Positions 1 through 35,261 of a DNA stretch of 36,257 nucleotides are shown here, in pieces. Under the pieces are notes generated by a model that saw nothing but the letters and a program-made list of their open reading frames with translations, searched no databases and was not told the DNA's origin. The stretch is taken from NCBI GenBank assembly GCA_905478325.1, contig CAJQIB010000053.1:1-36257 (forward strand). Direction: 5' to 3'. Both the position numbers and the translations under genes were made by a program. Positions within the stretch are counted from its first letter, which is position 1, and each line of letters begins with the position of its first letter. Origin of the DNA: an uncultured Flavobacteriales bacterium. Its GTDB lineage: Bacteria > Bacteroidota > Bacteroidia > Flavobacteriales_D > Sanyastnellaceae.

Positions 1-700
1 GACGCTTCAGCCACAGACGCAGGCTACTGCGATTACGCTGACTCCGGTTACGATTGCGCTGGCGTTTGCTTGAACGACGAAGACCAGGACGGTATCTGTG
101 ATGAGTTTGAGGTCGGTGGTTGCACCGACAACACGGCGTGCAACTTCAGCAATGATGCAACGGACGACGACGGATCATGCAGCTATGCTGACGCTGGTTA
201 CGACTGTGCAGGCAACTGCTTGGTGGATAGCGACGGTGATGGCACATGTGATCAAGACGAAGTGACGGGATGTCAAGACGACATGGCGTGCAACTACGAC
301 GCCTCAGCAACGGACGCAGGCTACTGCGATTACGCTGAGGCCGGTTACGATTGCAATGGCGTTTGCTTGAACGACGAAGACCAGGACGGCATATGCGATG
401 AATTCGAAATCGCGGGTTGCACCGACAACACGGCTTGCAACTTCAGCAATGCGGCAACGGACGACGACGACTCTTGCAGCTATGCTGACGCGGGTTACGA
501 CTGTGCAGGTAACTGCTTGGTGGATAGCGACGGTGATGGCATGTGTGATCAAGACGAAGTGACGGGATGTCAAGACGACATGGCGTGCAACTACGACTCC
601 TCAGCAACGGACGCAGGGTACTGCGACTATGCTGACTCCGGTTACGATTGCGCTGGCGTTTGCTTGAATGACGCGGACAACGACGGTGTATGTGATGCGG
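1..700 (+). repeat. 297-bp in-frame tandem direct repeats
   Basis: A 297-bp unit (99 codons) starts at 1, 298 and 595. The first two copies are complete and nearly identical by eye, with scattered changes that are often synonymous. The third is partial and diverges after roughly 700. The period is an exact multiple of three, so copy-number change would preserve the reading frame. The array probably continues upstream of the window. Confidence 0.9.
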
Positions 701-888
701 ACGAAGTGTACGGTTGCGATGACTCGGAGGCGATTAATTTCCAACCTTTGAGCACTGAATCAACCGATAACTGCTTGTATCCTGAAGATTTCGAACCGGA
801 TTGCATGTTCGATACGACAGGTGATGGCTATGTAGGAACAGCTGACTTGCTTGATTTCTTAGGAAACCTCGGGTCAACCTGTCCATAA
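1..888 (+). CDS. Secreted Cys-rich repeat protein with dockerin-like tail (5' partial)
   Basis: Frame 1 is open from the first base, so the gene starts upstream of the window; 295 residues are visible, ending at TAA 886-888. The visible part is a tandem array: a 99-residue unit begins at bases 1, 298 and 595. Each unit has two similar halves of about 49 residues. Each half carries an ACNYD or ACNFS motif, a GYDC motif and an acidic stretch such as DSDGDGTCD that resembles thrombospondin type 3 calcium sites. The last 28 residues form a single dockerin-like calcium loop (DTTGDGYVGTAD) followed by DLLDFL and a terminal CP. The Cys and Asp richness points to an extracellular, disulfide- and calcium-stabilised surface or adhesion protein, probably exported by T9SS. 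No catalytic domain is visible. The annotated function is inference; the repeat structure and tail are seen directly. Confidence 0.8.
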   Translation, partial: DASATDAGYCDYADSGYDCAGVCLNDEDQDGICDEFEVGGCTDNTACNFSNDATDDDGSCSYADAGYDCAGNCLVDSDGDGTCDQDEVTGCQDDMACNYDASATDAGYCDYAEAGYDCNGVCLNDEDQDGICDEFEIAGCTDNTACNFSNAATDDDDSCSYADAGYDCAGNCLVDSDGDGMCDQDEVTGCQDDMACNYDSSATDAGYCDYADSGYDCAGVCLNDADNDGVCDADEVYGCDDSEAINFQPLSTESTDNCLYPEDFEPDCMFDTTGDGYVGTADLLDFLGNLGSTCP

Positions 889-13627: not shown

Positions 13628-15658
13628 TTAACGCATCAAATGAAGCTCTCCATTGAGGGTGCCACGTTGTTCTCCTCCGCAAAGGATGAGGTAGGACATC
13701 TTGACGTAATACACCCCTTCCGTCACCGGTTCGCCGTTGATTCGGCCATCCCACTCTACGGGTTTTCCATCATGCATATAGACCGCATTGCCCCATCGAT
13801 TGAAAATACTCAATTGATAGCGGTCGACAATGGAGAGAAGTGGGAACTCGGGGTCGTTGGCTAAAAATGGCCGGAACCGCTCGTTTGTTCCATCGCCGTT
13901 TGGAGAAAAGACATTTGGAAGCATCGTTGAACTTGCATCAACAAATGCTTCGGGATCCTGGTACACAAAAACAGAGTCAGAACTGGAACAGCCATTTTCT
14001 TCGAATGCAACATTCAAGACATAGGTCCCGGGTAGATATGCGATTGGATTGAGCGGGTCGACGGCATTGAGGCTGCCAGCATTCCAAGTCCAATCGAACA
14101 CCGGTGTGTAGTTTTCAGGAGTGATGAGGATGTCATATATCGTGGCAGCAGGAGAAGCGCATGTAATGGTGTCAGACCAGCCAGCCTCTACCAGAGGTTC
14201 GGTGAAATCGGCTTCGAGGACCAAGGTTGTTTCTAGGTCGCATCCATTGGAGGGATTGGTTGAGGTGACGCTCCAAGATCCAGGAGTTGATGTCGCGAGA
14301 ACGAAGGGTTCCGTTAACCAATACCAATTCGCATCTGATGGAATGGTCCATTCCAAGAGCGCATCGGCCGCTGCTGTCGCCGTGATTTCTAAAACTTCAG
14401 TGGTGCAATCCAACTGCGCACCGGAAGACGATAGCGTCACATCCAACGTGCTGAAATCAGAAGTGATATCCATGCTGATCTCATCGATACAAACCCCATC
14501 ATCACTGGTCACAACCAACGTATAGATCCCCGGGGAATCCACGGTCGCATTGGGCCCTAGGTTGGACACGAAGTTCCCCAAGTCATCGCTCTGCCAGTCG
14601 TAAGAAACGCCGTTTGGAAAGTTGGATGCACCGAACAATTCAATTTGTGAGATATCGCACGTGATGGTCGTGCCTTCCGAGGTTTCAGCTGAGGCAACGA
14701 GGGGCTCTACAAATACAAAGACAGAATCGGTGATTTCCGCATCGCAGAACCCTGCGTACGTTACGGTATACGCCATGCTTGAATCAGGAGTGCACAGGGT
14801 TGTTGCGTCATTGGGGTTTGAGAGAAAAGTAGGCGGGTCCCAAGTGTACGTGGCATTCGGAGCTCCAACAACATTGAGTTCAACGCTTGCGCCGGGACAG
14901 ATGACCGTTTCAGGACCTGTTGCGATGATGTTCTCGGAGAGACAGACACTCTGGGTGTTAAAGGACCCCCCAGTACTCCCTGTAAACCCCCAGTAAACGA
15001 GGGTCTGTCCATTGAAAATATCGGCAACTAAGTCAATCTGTGCAGCCAACCGCAAAGAGCAGTCAAAATAGACAGCGATAATCTGTGTGTCCGGATCCCA
15101 CGTGATTTTGACCGGATGATCAGCCCCGTCTTCGATATTGATGTTATCCAGGCTTGCTTGAACTGGACCACCTAAACCTGTTGGTGGCGCATGGTTGACG
15201 GATCCATCAGAAACAAACCCGATGTGATCTTGGATGAGATCGCCATATTCACCGTTGTTCCACGTGTCAAATTCAACGCCAAAACTGGGGTCAAACCCAG
15301 TGAATCCTAAAGCTCCTCCGCTTTGTCCCAATGCCTCCGTGCCGACATCTTGCAAGACGAAAACCATGCCGTCTGCACCCGTGGCGTCTAACGTTCCGAA
15401 ATTCATGGTAAAGGACAAGTCAAAGGGGGACTCCAAGTCGATGAACTCACCGTTCCAAACGGTTCCGTTTTGATTGCTTTGCGTTGTCGTTAATTGATAA
15501 CAGTCTCCTTCAATGGACGATGCTGTTCCATTGAGGAAATAGGCTTGACCATTATGGTCTGTGGATGCCAGTAGACTGCAGCTGAGGACCAACGCGACTT
15601 TACCCCAACGGCCGAGATGAATGAAAAATGGAGCCAGGATGTCTCTTGGACGAATCAT
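13628..15658 (-). CDS. T9SS-exported lectin-like surface protein with CHU_C domain
   Basis: The protein has 676 residues from ATG 15658, chosen because it places a signal peptide (hydrophobic stretch then ASTDHNGQAYF) at the N-terminus; an upstream in-frame start at 15718 adds 20 residues without signal character. Residues about 40-250 resemble an L-type (legume-like) lectin: GADGMVFVLQD, FGVEFDTWNN and DHIGFVSDG are typical carbohydrate-binding sandwich motifs. The middle contains Ig/PKD-like beta domains with Cys pairs. The last about 95 residues form the gliding-motility-associated C-terminal domain: LPNVFSPNGDGTNERF, then SIFNRWGNAVY and WDGRINGEPV, the type B T9SS sorting signal. Likely a glycan-binding cell-surface or secreted protein; ligand unknown. 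It is convergent with the exonuclease-BRCT gene (9-base gap). Confidence 0.87.
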   Translation of the reverse strand: MIRPRDILAPFFIHLGRWGKVALVLSCSLLASTDHNGQAYFLNGTASSIEGDCYQLTTTQSNQNGTVWNGEFIDLESPFDLSFTMNFGTLDATGADGMVFVLQDVGTEALGQSGGALGFTGFDPSFGVEFDTWNNGEYGDLIQDHIGFVSDGSVNHAPPTGLGGPVQASLDNINIEDGADHPVKITWDPDTQIIAVYFDCSLRLAAQIDLVADIFNGQTLVYWGFTGSTGGSFNTQSVCLSENIIATGPETVICPGASVELNVVGAPNATYTWDPPTFLSNPNDATTLCTPDSSMAYTVTYAGFCDAEITDSVFVFVEPLVASAETSEGTTITCDISQIELFGASNFPNGVSYDWQSDDLGNFVSNLGPNATVDSPGIYTLVVTSDDGVCIDEISMDITSDFSTLDVTLSSSGAQLDCTTEVLEITATAAADALLEWTIPSDANWYWLTEPFVLATSTPGSWSVTSTNPSNGCDLETTLVLEADFTEPLVEAGWSDTITCASPAATIYDILITPENYTPVFDWTWNAGSLNAVDPLNPIAYLPGTYVLNVAFEENGCSSSDSVFVYQDPEAFVDASSTMLPNVFSPNGDGTNERFRPFLANDPEFPLLSIVDRYQLSIFNRWGNAVYMHDGKPVEWDGRINGEPVTEGVYYVKMSYLILCGGEQRGTLNGELHLMR

Positions 15659-15663
15659 GCTCC

Positions 15664-15671
15664 GAAAATTA
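15664..15671 (-). promoter_or_regulatory. Possible -7 element of the lectin-like gene
   Basis: On the minus strand TAATTTTC matches TAnnTTTG at all but the last position and lies 5 bases before the ATG at 15658. The intervening bases GGAGC are also Shine-Dalgarno-like, so the site is ambiguous. No good -33 box is visible. Confidence 0.25.
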
Positions 15672-15878
15672 CAACGTACAGAAGGGGAATGAGGCGTTTT
15701 AACAGATGAGGTTTGCACAGCAATGAGTCATTTGTGTTCAAAAAGCCACGTGATCTTCCCGTCTGAATTGCGCGTTTATCTGATTTCTAATCGAATACAA
15801 TAATTGGAACGTCGTGATGCTTCAAGAAAAGGCGTGCTGCTCTGAGAACCATGCAACGATTCCGCTTTTCTTGCAGTT

Positions 15879-15895
15879 CTTTGTTTGAAACAAAG
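15879..15895 (+). promoter_or_regulatory. Perfect 17-bp palindrome upstream of the M43 protease gene
   Basis: CTTTGTTT and AAACAAAG flank a single central G, giving perfect 8-bp arms. It lies 13 bases before the ATG at 15909, in a 250-bp divergent intergenic region (15659-15908). The rest of that region is AT-leaning with no other clear motif. It may be a repressor operator or a 5'-UTR hairpin controlling the protease gene; which is not decidable from sequence. Confidence 0.45.
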
Positions 15896-15908
15896 GTGTC
15901 ACAGATTT

Positions 15909-17876
15909 ATGAATAGGAAAGTAAACCGCTTGCTGTTTGTCGTCTTCAGTATACTGATAGTAGGAAATGCCTGGGGTCAAAGAACCTGTGGTACCGATTC
16001 TGTTCATGCTCATATGATGGGGCTTCCTGGTTATGATCGAGCGTATACTGATCGTCTGGATGCGGCAAACGCGGCTGCATCGGATCGCCTCGAGTGCGAT
16101 GTCCCGTTGCTGATTCCTGTGGCCGTGCATTTTCAAAGTACAGGGATTCCAATCGACTGTGCCATTGAAATGGCTGTGTCCCAAGTCCAAACCCTCAATG
16201 AGGACTTCGCTGCGACGAATGGAGATTTGGCGGAATGGGTGGAATCACAGCCAACAATTTGGCCTTCCATTGACAACGGTGAATCCTGCATTAGCTTCTG
16301 TTTGGCCACATTGGATCATCCAGATGGATTCGGATTGGACGAAGGTGACTATGCTGTGACATTGGATCAGACGACGGGAGATAGCGATGCCTCTTGGTCC
16401 GGTTATCTCAACTTTTTTGTACGCACCCTCGGAGGAGGGACATTGGGCTATTCCCCATTAGGAGGCAATGGCTCAGGGGATGGAGTGACCTGTGACCCGC
16501 AGTACTTTGGGAGTGTTTCTTGCGGAGGAAATACAATCAGTGGTGCATTCGACATGGGGCGAACGATCACACACGAAGTGGGACATTATTTGTTTTTGGA
16601 ACATCCTTGGGGTGGAGGAGGCTGTGCAGGTGACGATTTTGTTGCCGACACGCCCGCTACAGATGGTCCTCAATTTGGGTGTCCCAGTGGCCAGAACATT
16701 GTGAATTGCACTGCTCCCATTTTATGGCCGTCGTATATGGACTATTGCGACGACGCTTGCTTGTTCATGTTCTCAGAGGGCCAGGTGGCGCGCATGGAGA
16801 CGTATGTGACAGATAACCTTCAAAACCTGCTCAACAGTTCTACAACGGCTTGTGAAGAAGCCCTTTGCATCGGTTTTGATGTCGCAGTAAATGTTGTTGG
16901 AGAATCCTGTAATGGCAACGATGGAAGTGTCGTGGCATCCAGTGAGGGCGGATTGGCCCCGTATGAATATGTCTTAAATGGAGCACTTCAAGTGGGCAAC
17001 GGTTCCTTTTCCAATTTGCCATCCAACACCTATACGCTTGAAGTACTGGACGGAAACAGTTGTGTGTTCTCCCAGACAATCACGTTGGTTCAGGATGAGC
17101 CGGACCTTGAATTGGTGTCAGTCGTCAATGAGCACTGCAGTGACGGTGCCGGTCAAATCGCGGTGCAAGTCAACGAATCAAGCACGTTTGACTTTAGCAT
17201 CAACGCCGGTGACAGTTGGCAAGATACGGGCTCGTTTGTGGGGCTATCAGGAGGGACTTACACCATCGATGTTCAGAATGTATTTGGCTGTCAAGGAAGT
17301 GTGGAAGTGGAGGTTCTCAATACCAGTGAATTGGACTTGGTGGTTGAGTCCAAGGAAAATGTGCGATGTACGTGGTTTGACAACGGCAGCATTGATGTTC
17401 GGGCAGTCGGAGGGGATGAGCCTTACGTGTACGTCTACAATGACACTGAAACCTCTTCCTCTGGCGACTTCACATTGCTGCCTGTGGGCGATCACTTGAT
17501 TCGCGTAGAAGATGCCGTCGGGTGTGTTTACGAAGAGGTCTTTGCTTTGATCAATGATTTTTCAAACCTCGGTAACGATTGTCCTTGTAGCATATACGTG
17601 CCCAATGCATTCACGCCGGATGGCGATTTGCAAAATGAAGTGTGGGAAGTGAAGGCGTCTTGTCCCGTCTCTGGGTTTCATGTGCAGGTCTATGACCGCT
17701 GGGGAGTGCTGGTATTCGAGTCCATGGACGCAGCGTTCTTTTGGCAAGGAGGTGTCAACGGTTACTACCTTGACGCAGAGCTCTTTCTGTACAGGATCAC
17801 CTATCAATGGGGAGAGGAAGAAAACGCTTCAGTTGAGACGGAAGTCCAAACAGGATACGTATCGATCCTGCGCTAA
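15909..17876 (+). CDS. Secreted M43 (pappalysin-like) metalloprotease with SprB-like repeats and CHU_C domain
   Basis: The protein has 655 residues from ATG 15909; the first 22 or so residues are a signal peptide (LLFVVFSILIVGNAWGQ). An in-frame TTG at 15885 lies inside the palindrome and is unlikely. Residues about 25-315 are a zinc metalloprotease: HEVGHYLFLEH gives zinc ligands His222, His226 and His232 with catalytic Glu223, and SYMDYCDDAC supplies the Met-turn typical of family M43. From about residue 320 come two or three SprB-like beta repeats (SCNGNDGSV, GLAPYEYVLN, SNLPSNTYTLEV). The final about 95 residues are a CHU_C domain (VPNAFTPDGDLQNEVW, VYDRWGVLVFES), the type B T9SS sorting signal. 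Predicted extracellular protease. It ends 7 bases from the convergent TonB receptor gene. Confidence 0.9.
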   Translation: MNRKVNRLLFVVFSILIVGNAWGQRTCGTDSVHAHMMGLPGYDRAYTDRLDAANAAASDRLECDVPLLIPVAVHFQSTGIPIDCAIEMAVSQVQTLNEDFAATNGDLAEWVESQPTIWPSIDNGESCISFCLATLDHPDGFGLDEGDYAVTLDQTTGDSDASWSGYLNFFVRTLGGGTLGYSPLGGNGSGDGVTCDPQYFGSVSCGGNTISGAFDMGRTITHEVGHYLFLEHPWGGGGCAGDDFVADTPATDGPQFGCPSGQNIVNCTAPILWPSYMDYCDDACLFMFSEGQVARMETYVTDNLQNLLNSSTTACEEALCIGFDVAVNVVGESCNGNDGSVVASSEGGLAPYEYVLNGALQVGNGSFSNLPSNTYTLEVLDGNSCVFSQTITLVQDEPDLELVSVVNEHCSDGAGQIAVQVNESSTFDFSINAGDSWQDTGSFVGLSGGTYTIDVQNVFGCQGSVEVEVLNTSELDLVVESKENVRCTWFDNGSIDVRAVGGDEPYVYVYNDTETSSSGDFTLLPVGDHLIRVEDAVGCVYEEVFALINDFSNLGNDCPCSIYVPNAFTPDGDLQNEVWEVKASCPVSGFHVQVYDRWGVLVFESMDAAFFWQGGVNGYYLDAELFLYRITYQWGEEENASVETEVQTGYVSILR

Positions 17877-24553: not shown

Positions 24554-25936
24554 TCAATACACTGCGGCGCGCCCAGATTGAAAGCCAATGACCCGGTCAT
24601 AACCGGAATCATCCCAGTAATAGGCAATGACTTGGTAGGTGTTGTCTGCAGCAGCATGGGAACCTTCAACCGTTGATGTTACTCCAGCCCCTTTGGTCAA
24701 AGCTTCCGTGTCATACCGATCGGCCGCCCAAGAAGGCCGAGTGAGATAGGTGTAGTTGTAATATCCTTGCTTTAAAAAAAGAGCAAGTTCGTACCGGCGT
24801 TTGGTGTCATCCCACGTCATGCGATGCGTCAATGGAAACATCCAATCCGAGCATTGGCCAAAAACATACACGTCGCGATCTGGATAGGGGTCAAAGCAAG
24901 CTAGATAAAAATGGGCCATCACGTAATCGCCTCCTGTGTGATCATCTTGTCGCTCATTCGAGATAATATACGCACCGTTCAAGTCCCTTCTTGCTTGGTG
25001 GTATGCATAGGTGCGCAGTTCGTCAGGCTCTAAATGCATGTGGAAGTGATTGCGGCCATCTTCTATGCGGTCGAGTCCTTGGCTGACAAACTGCAGGCTT
25101 TTCAAATCGACGAATCGCCAGCTATTTCCGCCCTCAAATGCATTTTCACCCTGTTGGCTGAAGACCACTTCCTCGCCTTTAACAAAGACGGGTTCTAAAC
25201 TGGAAATAGCGGCATCCCAGCGACCGTTTTGAAGGAGTGTGGTCTGAAGCGCATCGTATGCGTCTTGAATAACAAAGCGATCCGGACTGTGCGTGATGGC
25301 GAAATCCAACTCTTGGTGAGAACGCTTCAGCGGAATCGACTTGGCCTCTTGCACCGTCATTTCAATGTCCACGAGGTTTTCATACACCACAAATCGTCGA
25401 AGAATCAGCGGGGTATCTGGTTCCGAAGGGTCAACAACTTCCAGAATATAGTTGCCGCTTTTATCAAAGCGCATGAGGTCATTTGGGAATTGCGCTGCAA
25501 AATGGGTGTAGCCGACCCGTGTGTTGAAACTGGACTCTGCCTGATCAAGACTCAGCGATGTGAAGCCCTGAATGCAGTCTGATGCTGTGAGGTCGGGAGA
25601 ATCATACCAGTCAAAAGTGCAATGTTGCCAACGCATTTCCAATGTTCGGAAGCGCTCACTCAGATCATCAAATTGGAATTTCAGAATGCCGTCGTCCAAT
25701 GCAATAAATGGAAGTTCAGCCGGGAGGCCTTGTGGATGCAGCGTCACGCTGAGGATGTTCTCTGCCGCATAGGCAATGGGATATGGGGTGTCTTGACCTT
25801 GGGCAACCGTGCTCAAAAATGCAAAGGCGAGAAGCAAAACGAAAAGAGAAGGATTGGAGAGAACACGCGCTGTATTTGGTGTCCGATTCGGGTCTTTCTG
25901 AGCCCCTAAAAGTGTGAATTGTCTGTTTAGCAACAT
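24554..25936 (-). CDS. Type IX secretion system plug-family protein (DUF5103)
   Basis: The protein has 460 residues. The N-terminus is a long basic n-region followed by a hydrophobic signal (LFVLLLAFAFLSTVAQGQ); no better in-frame start is present. The body matches the Bacteroidota DUF5103 or T9SS-plug family as I recall it: RTLEMRWQHCTFDWYDSP near residue 95, SSFNTRVGYTHFAAQFPND near 135, KSGNYILEVVD near 160 and LILRRFVVYENLVDIEM near 175. Members of this family are described as T9SS plug components associated with the SprA translocon; that role here is from family knowledge. It is the first gene of the minus-strand run and is divergent from nqrA, with 88 bases between start codons. Confidence 0.85.
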   Translation of the reverse strand: MLLNRQFTLLGAQKDPNRTPNTARVLSNPSLFVLLLAFAFLSTVAQGQDTPYPIAYAAENILSVTLHPQGLPAELPFIALDDGILKFQFDDLSERFRTLEMRWQHCTFDWYDSPDLTASDCIQGFTSLSLDQAESSFNTRVGYTHFAAQFPNDLMRFDKSGNYILEVVDPSEPDTPLILRRFVVYENLVDIEMTVQEAKSIPLKRSHQELDFAITHSPDRFVIQDAYDALQTTLLQNGRWDAAISSLEPVFVKGEEVVFSQQGENAFEGGNSWRFVDLKSLQFVSQGLDRIEDGRNHFHMHLEPDELRTYAYHQARRDLNGAYIISNERQDDHTGGDYVMAHFYLACFDPYPDRDVYVFGQCSDWMFPLTHRMTWDDTKRRYELALFLKQGYYNYTYLTRPSWAADRYDTEALTKGAGVTSTVEGSHAAADNTYQVIAYYWDDSGYDRVIGFQSGRAAVY

Positions 25937-33485: not shown

Positions 33486-35261
33486 ATGTGGCGTGCAGTT
33501 ATTCGATGGGTGTTGATCATGGGCAGCATGTTGCCTGTTTCCCTGTGGGCTCAATTCGAATCGTGCGCATGTCCACCCATCGGAGACCGGCCGTTGACGT
33601 ATGTGAATGATGGAGAGGGGTCGGGCACGGGGACTGTGCATTGGACGTGCGATAGCATCTATGTTTTAACAGAGACCGTTTTTGTCAATGCAGGTGATGC
33701 TTTGACCATTGACCCCGGAACGGTCATCATGGGGAGACAAGCGTTAGCGATTGATACGTTGACGTATACGTTGCCAAATGGCAATCCGTCGTTGCGTGAG
33801 GACTACATATTCAGTCAAGAGGCGGGGAGTTTAGTCGTTGCAGCAGGTGCGGAAATTCAAGCGGAAGGCACATCCAATTGTCCCATTGTTTTCACGTACG
33901 AAGGGGATCCCATGGACGGAAGTTCGGGGTATGACCTCCGAGGTAAATGGGGAGGTTTGATTGTTTGTGGCCACGGCTCCTTGAACACATATGACGGTGA
34001 TGATACAGTCGAGGGCATTGAAGATTGGTCAGGACAAAACAGGCATGTGTATGGGAATGGAACGGATCCTGATGGCTCTTCTGGAATTTTGAAATTCTTG
34101 AGCATTCGTCATGGATCGACTTCACGGGGCATCAGTCAATTTGGAAATGGCTTAGAGACCAACGCGTTTACGTTGTGTGGCGTCGGAAGTACGACCACCG
34201 TGGATTACATCGAAGCGGTAGCGAGCGGTGATGATGGCATTCAAATTTTTGGAGGTACCGTGAATGTGCGCCATTTAGGCCTTGCGTTCAATGCAGAGGA
34301 TGGTCTGGAATACGACCAGGGGTGGCAGGGAAACGGTCAATTCATTTTTGTCATTACCGATGAACTCAGTGGTGCTGGAGAAATGGCGGGCGATTACGAA
34401 GGAGACGATTATGAAGAATTCGACGTGGACATGACATTCATGCCGTTTTCCAATCCGTTGCTATACAATCAAACCTATGTAGGGCGGGGAGAAGCGACGG
34501 CCATCAGGCTGCACAACGGAGCAGGCGTGCGCCTACACAACAGCTTGTTTCTCAATTTTGAGCTTGGAATCGATTTTGAAGATGAAGATCCATGCGATGC
34601 GTGGGAACTTTTGCTCTTTGGAGAAACGCTCATTGAAAACAATCGGTTTTGGAGCATCGGAGATAGCTCAGCCCTATCTGAAATGATCTTGTATAATGAA
34701 GGGTTTGTTTGGAATGGACAAGAAGAAGTTGAAGCCCACTTTATAGCGAACAACAATGCTGCGGCGGACCCTGGCTGTGATTTTGTGTTTGCTACGGAAT
34801 CAGGATTTGTGATCGACCCCATTGATTTGACTCCAGCACTGGACTCGTTGATCATCGATGATGTTTACTTACCATCCATTGATTGGTTTGTTCCGGTCGA
34901 TTACATCGGTGCGTTTTCACACGATCAATCCAATTGGCTCACGTGTTGGACCTACATGGAACAGCTTGGTTTGTTTGGTCAATGGAACACTCCTGAAGGA
35001 ACCGTAGGGGGGTGCACGTATGCATTTGCGTGTAATTTTAACCCTGATGCGGTGGTGGACGATGGTTCTTGCGAAGTGGAATCATGTGCCGGTTGTGTCT
35101 GGCCAGACGCCTCTAATTATGATCCGGAAGCGGTGTGGGATGATGGTTCTTGCGAGCTCATCTCAGAAAACACATGCCCTGAAGACATCAATGCTGATGG
35201 ACAAGTGACAACAACGGATTTGCTGATGTTTTTGGCGGCATACGGTATGGTCTGCCCATGA
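33486..35261 (+). CDS. Secreted beta-helix-like protein with dockerin-like C-terminal tail
   Basis: The protein has 591 residues with a signal peptide (VLIMGSMLPVSLWAQ). Residues about 50-310 read like a right-handed beta-helix surface protein common in Bacteroidota: TIDPGTVIMG, GKWGGLIVCGHG, SSGILKFLSIRHG, SGDDGIQIFGGTVNVRHL and EDGLEYDQGWQGNGQF. Near the C-terminus are two Cys-rich repeats (GCTYAFACNFNPDAVVDDGS, then SNYDPEAVWDDGSC), related to those of the protein at 1-888. The last 28 residues are a dockerin-like calcium loop (DINADGQVTTTD) followed by DLLMFL and a terminal CP, aligning without gaps to the tail of that same protein. No CHU_C or standard Por_Secre domain is present. No catalytic residues can be named; probable surface or secreted structural or binding protein. 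Confidence 0.8.
   Translation: MWRAVIRWVLIMGSMLPVSLWAQFESCACPPIGDRPLTYVNDGEGSGTGTVHWTCDSIYVLTETVFVNAGDALTIDPGTVIMGRQALAIDTLTYTLPNGNPSLREDYIFSQEAGSLVVAAGAEIQAEGTSNCPIVFTYEGDPMDGSSGYDLRGKWGGLIVCGHGSLNTYDGDDTVEGIEDWSGQNRHVYGNGTDPDGSSGILKFLSIRHGSTSRGISQFGNGLETNAFTLCGVGSTTTVDYIEAVASGDDGIQIFGGTVNVRHLGLAFNAEDGLEYDQGWQGNGQFIFVITDELSGAGEMAGDYEGDDYEEFDVDMTFMPFSNPLLYNQTYVGRGEATAIRLHNGAGVRLHNSLFLNFELGIDFEDEDPCDAWELLLFGETLIENNRFWSIGDSSALSEMILYNEGFVWNGQEEVEAHFIANNNAAADPGCDFVFATESGFVIDPIDLTPALDSLIIDDVYLPSIDWFVPVDYIGAFSHDQSNWLTCWTYMEQLGLFGQWNTPEGTVGGCTYAFACNFNPDAVVDDGSCEVESCAGCVWPDASNYDPEAVWDDGSCELISENTCPEDINADGQVTTTDLLMFLAAYGMVCP

Follow-up and report, generated by a model that had tools for sequence, protein, structure and literature searches.

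Background

Two kinds of sorting signal, type A and type B, are known for the type IX secretion system (T9SS), as set out in PMC9143113. The type A domain has been described as a beta-sandwich, and its targeting signal has been reported to lie in the last 22 residues (PMC4804311). The two kinds are represented here by the models TIGR04183 (type A) and TIGR04131 (type B, CHU_C). The PEP-CTERM, GlyGly-CTERM and MYXO-CTERM signals consist of a C-terminal membrane-spanning helix followed by basic residues. Dockerins have calcium loops with the spacing D-x-[ND]-x-D-G-x-[VI]-x-x-x-D and are represented by Pfam Dockerin_1 (PF00404); the NCBIfam model NF041540 (GC-type dockerin domain-anchored protein) also describes dockerin-like repeats at the C-terminus.

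The tail described here resembles several of these systems in part. Like the type A domain, it stands at the C-terminus of signal-peptide-bearing proteins, in the same protein families and the same genomes. However, TIGR04183 has 72 model positions against 29 per tail repeat, the sequences do not match, and the beta-sandwich described for type A (PMC4804311) differs from the EF-hand/dockerin-like tail. The type B domain is the second C-terminal T9SS signal and is found on two other proteins of the window (the whole stretch of DNA analysed here, contig C53, positions 1-36257); the tailed proteins have no sequence match to it. With Dockerin_1 the tail shares the loop spacing and, for its doubled form, the predicted fold, the best match being 2y3n_B; but tails are often a single half-dockerin, the doublets have four invariant cysteines (34 of 34), and cohesin is nearly absent. 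The match to NF041540 is also incomplete: 8 of 19 tail proteins from the genome of the window match below the cut-off (17.7-23.1 bits) and the other 11 not at all at E<=0.01, single tails are about half the length of the model, and the tail alternates with T9SS domains. A limited search of the literature, which is weak evidence, found nothing linking this tail with the T9SS.

In our view the tail is likely to be a small C-terminal module for sorting or anchoring, probably folded with calcium. In one family of Flavobacteriales it would take the place of the T9SS C-terminal domain on many of the exported proteins.

Two tails in the window

The window belongs to a genome of 2.375 Mb in 59 contigs. 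Two proteins of the window end in the tail (Table 1). Tail 1 reads CMFDTTGDGYVGTADLLDFLGNLGSTCP and is followed by TAA at 886-888; tail 2 reads CPEDINADGQVTTTDLLMFLAAYGMVCP and is followed by TGA at 35259-35261. A first-pass annotation of this DNA had derived from them the motif C-x2-D-x3-DG-x-V-x-T-x-DLL then FL-x3-G-x2-CP, and both tails indeed fit it without gaps, with the stop codon directly after each. The same annotation had taken both tailed proteins to be exported. The second has a signal-peptide-like N-terminus (hydrophobicity measure 1.88, with the line drawn at 1.9), but the first is cut by the start of contig C53, so that its N-terminus and any signal peptide lie outside the visible sequence. 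The statement that the two other exported proteins of the window carry CHU_C domains is confirmed by their TIGR04131 scores, as is the lack of a CHU_C or Por-type domain on the tailed proteins, for which neither TIGR04183 nor TIGR04131 is listed at E<=10, a listing from which the HMMER filters remove most matches above about 0.1.

Table 1. Features of the window that bear on the tail
Feature	Position	Strand	Basis
C-terminal part of a large Cys/Asp-rich repeat protein, ending in tail 1	1..888	+	translation; contig start cuts the ORF
Tail 1, single dockerin-type loop and helix, C-terminal	802..885	+	profile E 4.0e-12
Protein with T9SS type B (CHU_C) sorting domain, for contrast	13628..15718	-	TIGR04131 40.3 bits, cut-off 35
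Protein with T9SS type B (CHU_C) sorting domain, for contrast	15885..17876	+	TIGR04131 46.9 bits, cut-off 35
Type IX secretion system plug protein, T9SS component	24554..25936	-	NF052315 310.8 bits, cut-off 100
591-aa protein with signal-peptide-like start and tail 2	33486..35261	+	translation; homologue search
Tail 2, single dockerin-type loop and helix, C-terminal	35175..35258	+	profile E 5.0e-15

Positions 1-780 of the window encode alternating Cys/Asp-rich repeats of the form GCxDxxACNYxxxATDxxGSCxYADxGYDCxGxCLxDxDxDGxCDxxEV. Similar repeats stand before tails in other proteins of the same genome.

The tail family in the genome of the window

Tail 1 alone, used as a query, gives 31 matches at E<=10 in its own genome, itself included. 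Profile A1 was made from 24 rows of terminal tail repeats; its consensus is xCPxDxNxDGxVxxxDLLxFLxxFGxxCx, with D5, D16, L18 and C28 invariant. All 24 rows have the final cysteine and 20 have the leading one; by eye, both occur in all 16 single tails among the rows. At E<=0.01 the profile finds 59 matches in 46 ORFs of this genome, and in 39 of the 46 the last match lies 0-4 residues from the stop (two paralogues with identical ends are counted apart in both figures), so that the likeness of the two window tails is no coincidence. The first-pass annotation had proposed such a count and had named a mainly internal position as an argument against a sorting role; the motif is internal only, or near the N-terminus, in 7 of the 46. 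One profile match is found in 26 of the 39 C-terminally tailed ORFs and two in the remaining 13. The two repeats are close together in 12 of the 13 and about 118 residues apart in the other (L028), and a weaker, unscored upstream repeat is visible in some one-match ORFs (e.g. L237).

A strongly hydrophobic segment is found near a possible start in 25 of the 28 C-terminal tail ORFs whose start is visible (the paralogue pair with identical ends being counted once and 10 ORFs open at the 5' end excluded), although the measure is rough, since one of seven controls, an alpha-amylase-like protein that may itself be exported, passes too. Among the 19 tail proteins of this genome that were scanned, none matches TIGR04183 or TIGR04131 at E<=0.01, and NCBIfam supplies a name above cut-off for two, both choice-of-anchor B proteins. 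In four ORFs of the genome (L239 on C1, two in L240 on C32, and L242 on C17) a half-dockerin motif stands shortly after a signal-peptide-like start and is not terminal, so the module is not confined to C-termini. A further protein, L024 on C23, has 155 residues made up of a short N-terminal domain and a dockerin doublet; we take it to resemble small proteins of Bacteroidota whose usual C-terminus is a type A domain.

Dockerin likeness and predicted fold

The earlier reading of the tail as a dockerin-type loop followed by a helix agrees with the profile search, in which, among solved structures, A1 matches the dockerin chain 2y3n_B best (E 9.6e-10), with cellulosomal chains ranking ahead of the first calmodulin. 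Among the doublets found in the loci of named genomes, the loop aspartates are common to all 34, as are the four cysteines. A model of one such doublet (L146) has a pLDDT of 84.3 and a pTM of 0.67 and superimposes on 2y3n_B with Z 9.9 and rmsd 1.6 over 60 aligned residues, a Z of the middling kind which, as the structure-comparison tool warns, is common for helical models. A Foldseek search with the doublet model also places dockerins on top, with a best E of 1.7e-3 and none under 0.001. The model of a single tail of the window is of low confidence (pLDDT 54.6, from an alignment of 4 rows only), and the dockerin fold is thus supported for the doublet only. For the doubled tail of related genomes, then, the predicted fold is that of a dockerin.

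Family models recognise the tail unevenly. A Pfam scan of nine proteins finds Dockerin_1 in two at E<=0.01, one above the cut-off of 22.9 (L027, 26.1) and one below it (L024, 20.7). In the window, where each tail has one repeat, tail 2 scores 18.8 against this same cut-off and tail 1 is unmatched. The protein L088, from the same genus, covers positions 1-67 of the 67 in NF041540 with 31.3 bits (cut-off 29), whereas L096 reaches 26.3 bits and tail 2 alone 20.3 bits, both below the cut-off; tail 1, and each of the two window proteins taken whole, have no listed match to this model. NCBI already names a related GC-type dockerin as an anchor, and we regard the tail as a variant of that known kind.

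Other classes of C-terminal signal were considered and rejected. A type A or type B domain diverged beyond recognition does not fit, as these domains are unlisted at E<=10 in the window proteins and the doublet models as a dockerin. The PEP-CTERM, GlyGly-CTERM and MYXO-CTERM class was set aside on inspection of A1 by eye: the profile has a short DLLxFLxxFG helix and a cysteine near its end, with no long hydrophobic span and no basic end. A membrane-anchored, sortase-type signal was rejected because A1, again by eye, contains no membrane span.

Exchange with the type A domain

The exchange of the tail with the type A domain, as read from sequence comparison, is the strongest evidence for a putative role in sorting or anchoring. 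It is best seen in the NCBI choice-of-anchor B family (TIGR04312), which takes in two tailed proteins of the genome of the window (L021 and L030). Among 77 choice-of-anchor B ORFs, a non-random sample comprising these two proteins, 30 loci and 40 stretches from an order-wide search, the stretches picked for genus coverage (L111, a second copy of L089, being counted once), 34 have a type A end, 30 a tail (29 double and one single) and none both, while eight have neither and five are cut off. Type A ends were labelled with a local model for which 32 of these same sequences had served as input; an NCBIfam check of ten proteins found the domain in 5 of 5 labelled type A and in 0 of 5 with a tail. 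Both end types occur in the genome of the window, since L093 ends in a type A domain. In 27 of 80 loci of named records the choice-of-anchor B protein is visibly tail-ended.

Mapped on a tree built from the shared domain alone, the end types require a minimum of three changes, compared with a mean of 21.5 changes when the labels are shuffled. One of the three changes rests on L030, which forms a very long branch. A tree without the two longest branches, L030 and L124, still needs three changes, two of them forced by well-supported (starred) branches; both trees are from quick searches. The clearest case comes from genome G047, in which the single-tail protein L126 groups with a type A protein of the same genome (L125) and with the type A proteins L093 and L094 of the window's own genus, with a support of 85.

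The family of the second window protein presents a similar picture. Among 31 ORFs in the best 30 loci, 19 end in a tail, nine in a type A domain and none in both; two of the others are cut off and one ends at an N-run. The tail-ended homologues belong to four genera (g1, g5, g11 and g12) and the type A ends to other genera. The tree of this family has one end-type change, between the orthologues and more distant paralogues, which could thus be one old event.

Across 22 genomes of the window's family the number of tail matches per Mb is negatively related to that of type A matches (Spearman -0.69), a relation which ignores ancestry, counts tail repeats rather than proteins, and includes four genomes with type A counts of at least 150 and four in which the tail counts are lower bounds. 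Without the four genomes of high type A count the coefficient is -0.72 (18 genomes), and over their 13 genera it is -0.76. Per Mb, for example, the two genomes of genus g7 have 38.8-46.2 type A matches and 0.4-1.0 for the tail, and the two of genus g11 have 17.5-18.8 type A matches and 32.5-33.8 for the tail. Genera g1, g2, g3, g5, g8, g11-g15 and g17 are rich in tails, and their sister genera g4, g6, g7, g9, g10 and g16 are poor in them.

Distribution of the tail and of the T9SS

In a sample of 150 genomes of the order, searched at E<=0.01 with up to 55 candidates scored in each genome, 64 genomes have a tail match. The tail is present in 46 of the 47 genomes of the window's family and in 18 of the 103 elsewhere in the order, the latter having 1-3 matches each; at least 30 matches are found in 32 of the 47. 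In a sample of the phylum, searched at E<=1e-5, three of 296 genomes have the tail, all of the same order and the genome of the window among them. A further set consists of the 24 genomes behind the loci of named records. The ten with a tail-ended choice-of-anchor B protein, some of them also in the order sample, have 39-89 tail matches each, while of the other 14 genomes 12 have no tail match and two have one weak match. The named tail carriers are titled uncultured Flavobacteriales, Bacteroidetes or similar metagenome-assembled genomes (MAGs).

The T9SS is far more widespread. Its channel, SprA, is found in 147 of the 150 genomes of the order sample and in 47 of 47 from the window's family, and every one of the 150 has type A domains. 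The first-pass annotation had asked whether the tail tracks the T9SS, and of the 64 genomes with a tail in the order sample, 63 have SprA; the tail-bearing genome in which SprA was not found (G082) is 82% complete and has one tail match. Because SprA occurs in all 47 sampled genomes of the family, co-occurrence says little inside it, and since every tail-rich genome has a T9SS, the family offers no natural test. Occurrence in genomes that lack a T9SS had been named as an argument against a sorting role; a single weak tail match was found in one of seven non-Bacteroidota genomes of the named set, none of which is known to have a T9SS. Neither this count nor that of the internal matches refutes the sorting idea.

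Possible function of the tail

The suggestion that the tail is an alternative signal for export or anchoring is partly supported, by its C-terminal position, its exchange with the type A domain in two families, the lack of any ORF with both, and its occurrence mostly in T9SS genomes. Since the tail occupies the place of the T9SS signal in related proteins, it probably serves a comparable purpose, directing proteins to the cell surface or keeping them there in a different way. A possible course of events can be outlined. A Sec signal peptide, judging from the signal-peptide-like starts seen in the sequences, would take the protein out of the cytoplasm. In the periplasm or outside the cell, one or two loops of the D-x-[ND]-x-D-G-x-V type may bind calcium and order the DLLxFLxxFG helix, and the conserved flanking cysteines could form a disulfide that closes the module. 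The folded module might then dock on a partner, other than a recognisable cohesin, which would bring the protein to the surface and hold it there. Passage of the outer membrane would most likely be by the T9SS, either because its machinery recognises the tail or because the partner on which the module docks is a T9SS substrate in its own right. A bolder proposal, which we consider possible but somewhat less likely than not, is that the tail represents a third class of T9SS signal, a calcium-dependent half-dockerin of about 30 residues whose fold is unrelated to type A and which is read, by the T9SS or by a T9SS-exported receptor, as a tag for export and surface attachment.

How the tail would be read may be considered in several ways. 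Recognition by the T9SS machinery itself, for example by a PorV- or PorP-like shuttle that handles the tail like a type A or type B domain, is a possibility that we regard with some doubt. The interchange of tail and type A domain at one C-terminal place argues for it, as do the SprA count in the tail-bearing genomes of the order sample and the negative relation between tail and type A densities. Yet the presence of SprA in all 47 sampled genomes of the family weakens the co-occurrence argument there, and a small EF-hand/dockerin-like tail differs from the published beta-sandwich (PMC4804311), so that direct reading would need a different contact. That the tail serves a T9SS-independent route of export or anchoring, specific to the window's family, seems rather unlikely; such a route would agree with the near confinement of the tail to one family while the T9SS is order-wide, and with the NCBI naming of the GC-type dockerin as an anchor, but for the replacement of a T9SS signal in genomes that possess a T9SS, a common exit is the simpler explanation.

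If the tail had no sorting role, it might be a cap, stabilised by calcium and disulfides, on proteins which are no longer exported to the surface and act in the periplasm instead. The shortness of the module, its conserved cysteines and the seven ORFs with the motif only away from the C-terminus are compatible with such a cap, which we nevertheless judge unlikely in view of the C-terminal position on unrelated proteins (39 of 46 ORFs) and the repeated exchange with a sorting domain. An ordinary cohesin-dockerin scaffold of the cellulosome kind, in which the tails plug into cohesins of a surface scaffoldin, would account for the relation of the tail profile and fold to dockerins. It has parallels in a model for Cloacimonadota, where dockerin-bearing enzymes sit on a cohesin scaffold that carries a C-terminal domain (CTD) for surface attachment (PMC8542988), and in the proposed planctomycete 'planctosome' with its cohesin-dockerin pairs (PMC6461901). 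However, a search for cohesin (PF00963, E<=0.001) was nearly empty, with one copy each in 4 of the 47 family genomes and none in the nine of the window's own genus, even though 32 of the 47 have at least 30 tail matches. One paper reports that cohesins and dockerins were not found in its genome, in line with other Bacteroidetes (PMC5831590). With cohesins nearly absent we reject an ordinary cellulosome as improbable, a diverged cohesin-like fold being possible. The Cloacimonadota model does provide a precedent for hitch-hiking on T9SS-type cargo (PMC8542988).

If the tail does stand in for type A or type B domains, predicted secretomes miss many proteins, with 39 C-terminal-tail ORFs in the genome of the window alone; metalloproteases (L019 and L027) and choice-of-anchor proteins would be among them. 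The tag would then be very short and perhaps calcium-dependent, and its natural swap with type A on the same protein families makes the requirements of a C-terminal signal directly testable.

Other C-terminal ends and a doubtful genome name

The eight choice-of-anchor B ORFs with neither end comprise three with ends that look like diverged type A domains (two in L118 and one in L130), two at N-runs (L072 and L106), and three that have another C-terminal pattern in common (L068, L074 and L087). This pattern, similar to LVKxxDxLGREVxxxxNQxxFxxYSDGSxEKxF, was missed in these three by the local type A model, and an end of the same type also occurs in L169, L170, L174, L176, L184, L185, L187, L190, L195, L198 and L216. 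It is possibly a diverged T9SS domain that the standard models miss. Two proteins of Saprospiraceae (in L188 and L225) end in a different tail with a single calcium-loop-like segment, DYNLxGDVNGADKxxWxxNNGxSSRVPK, which may be a comparable tail of independent origin in a separate lineage. Finally, a MAG titled Chryseobacterium gleum, isolate MiE-14oct19-89 (G448; loci L159 and L180), has 49 tail matches; it looks like a member of the tail-using family, and the name Chryseobacterium gleum is probably wrong.
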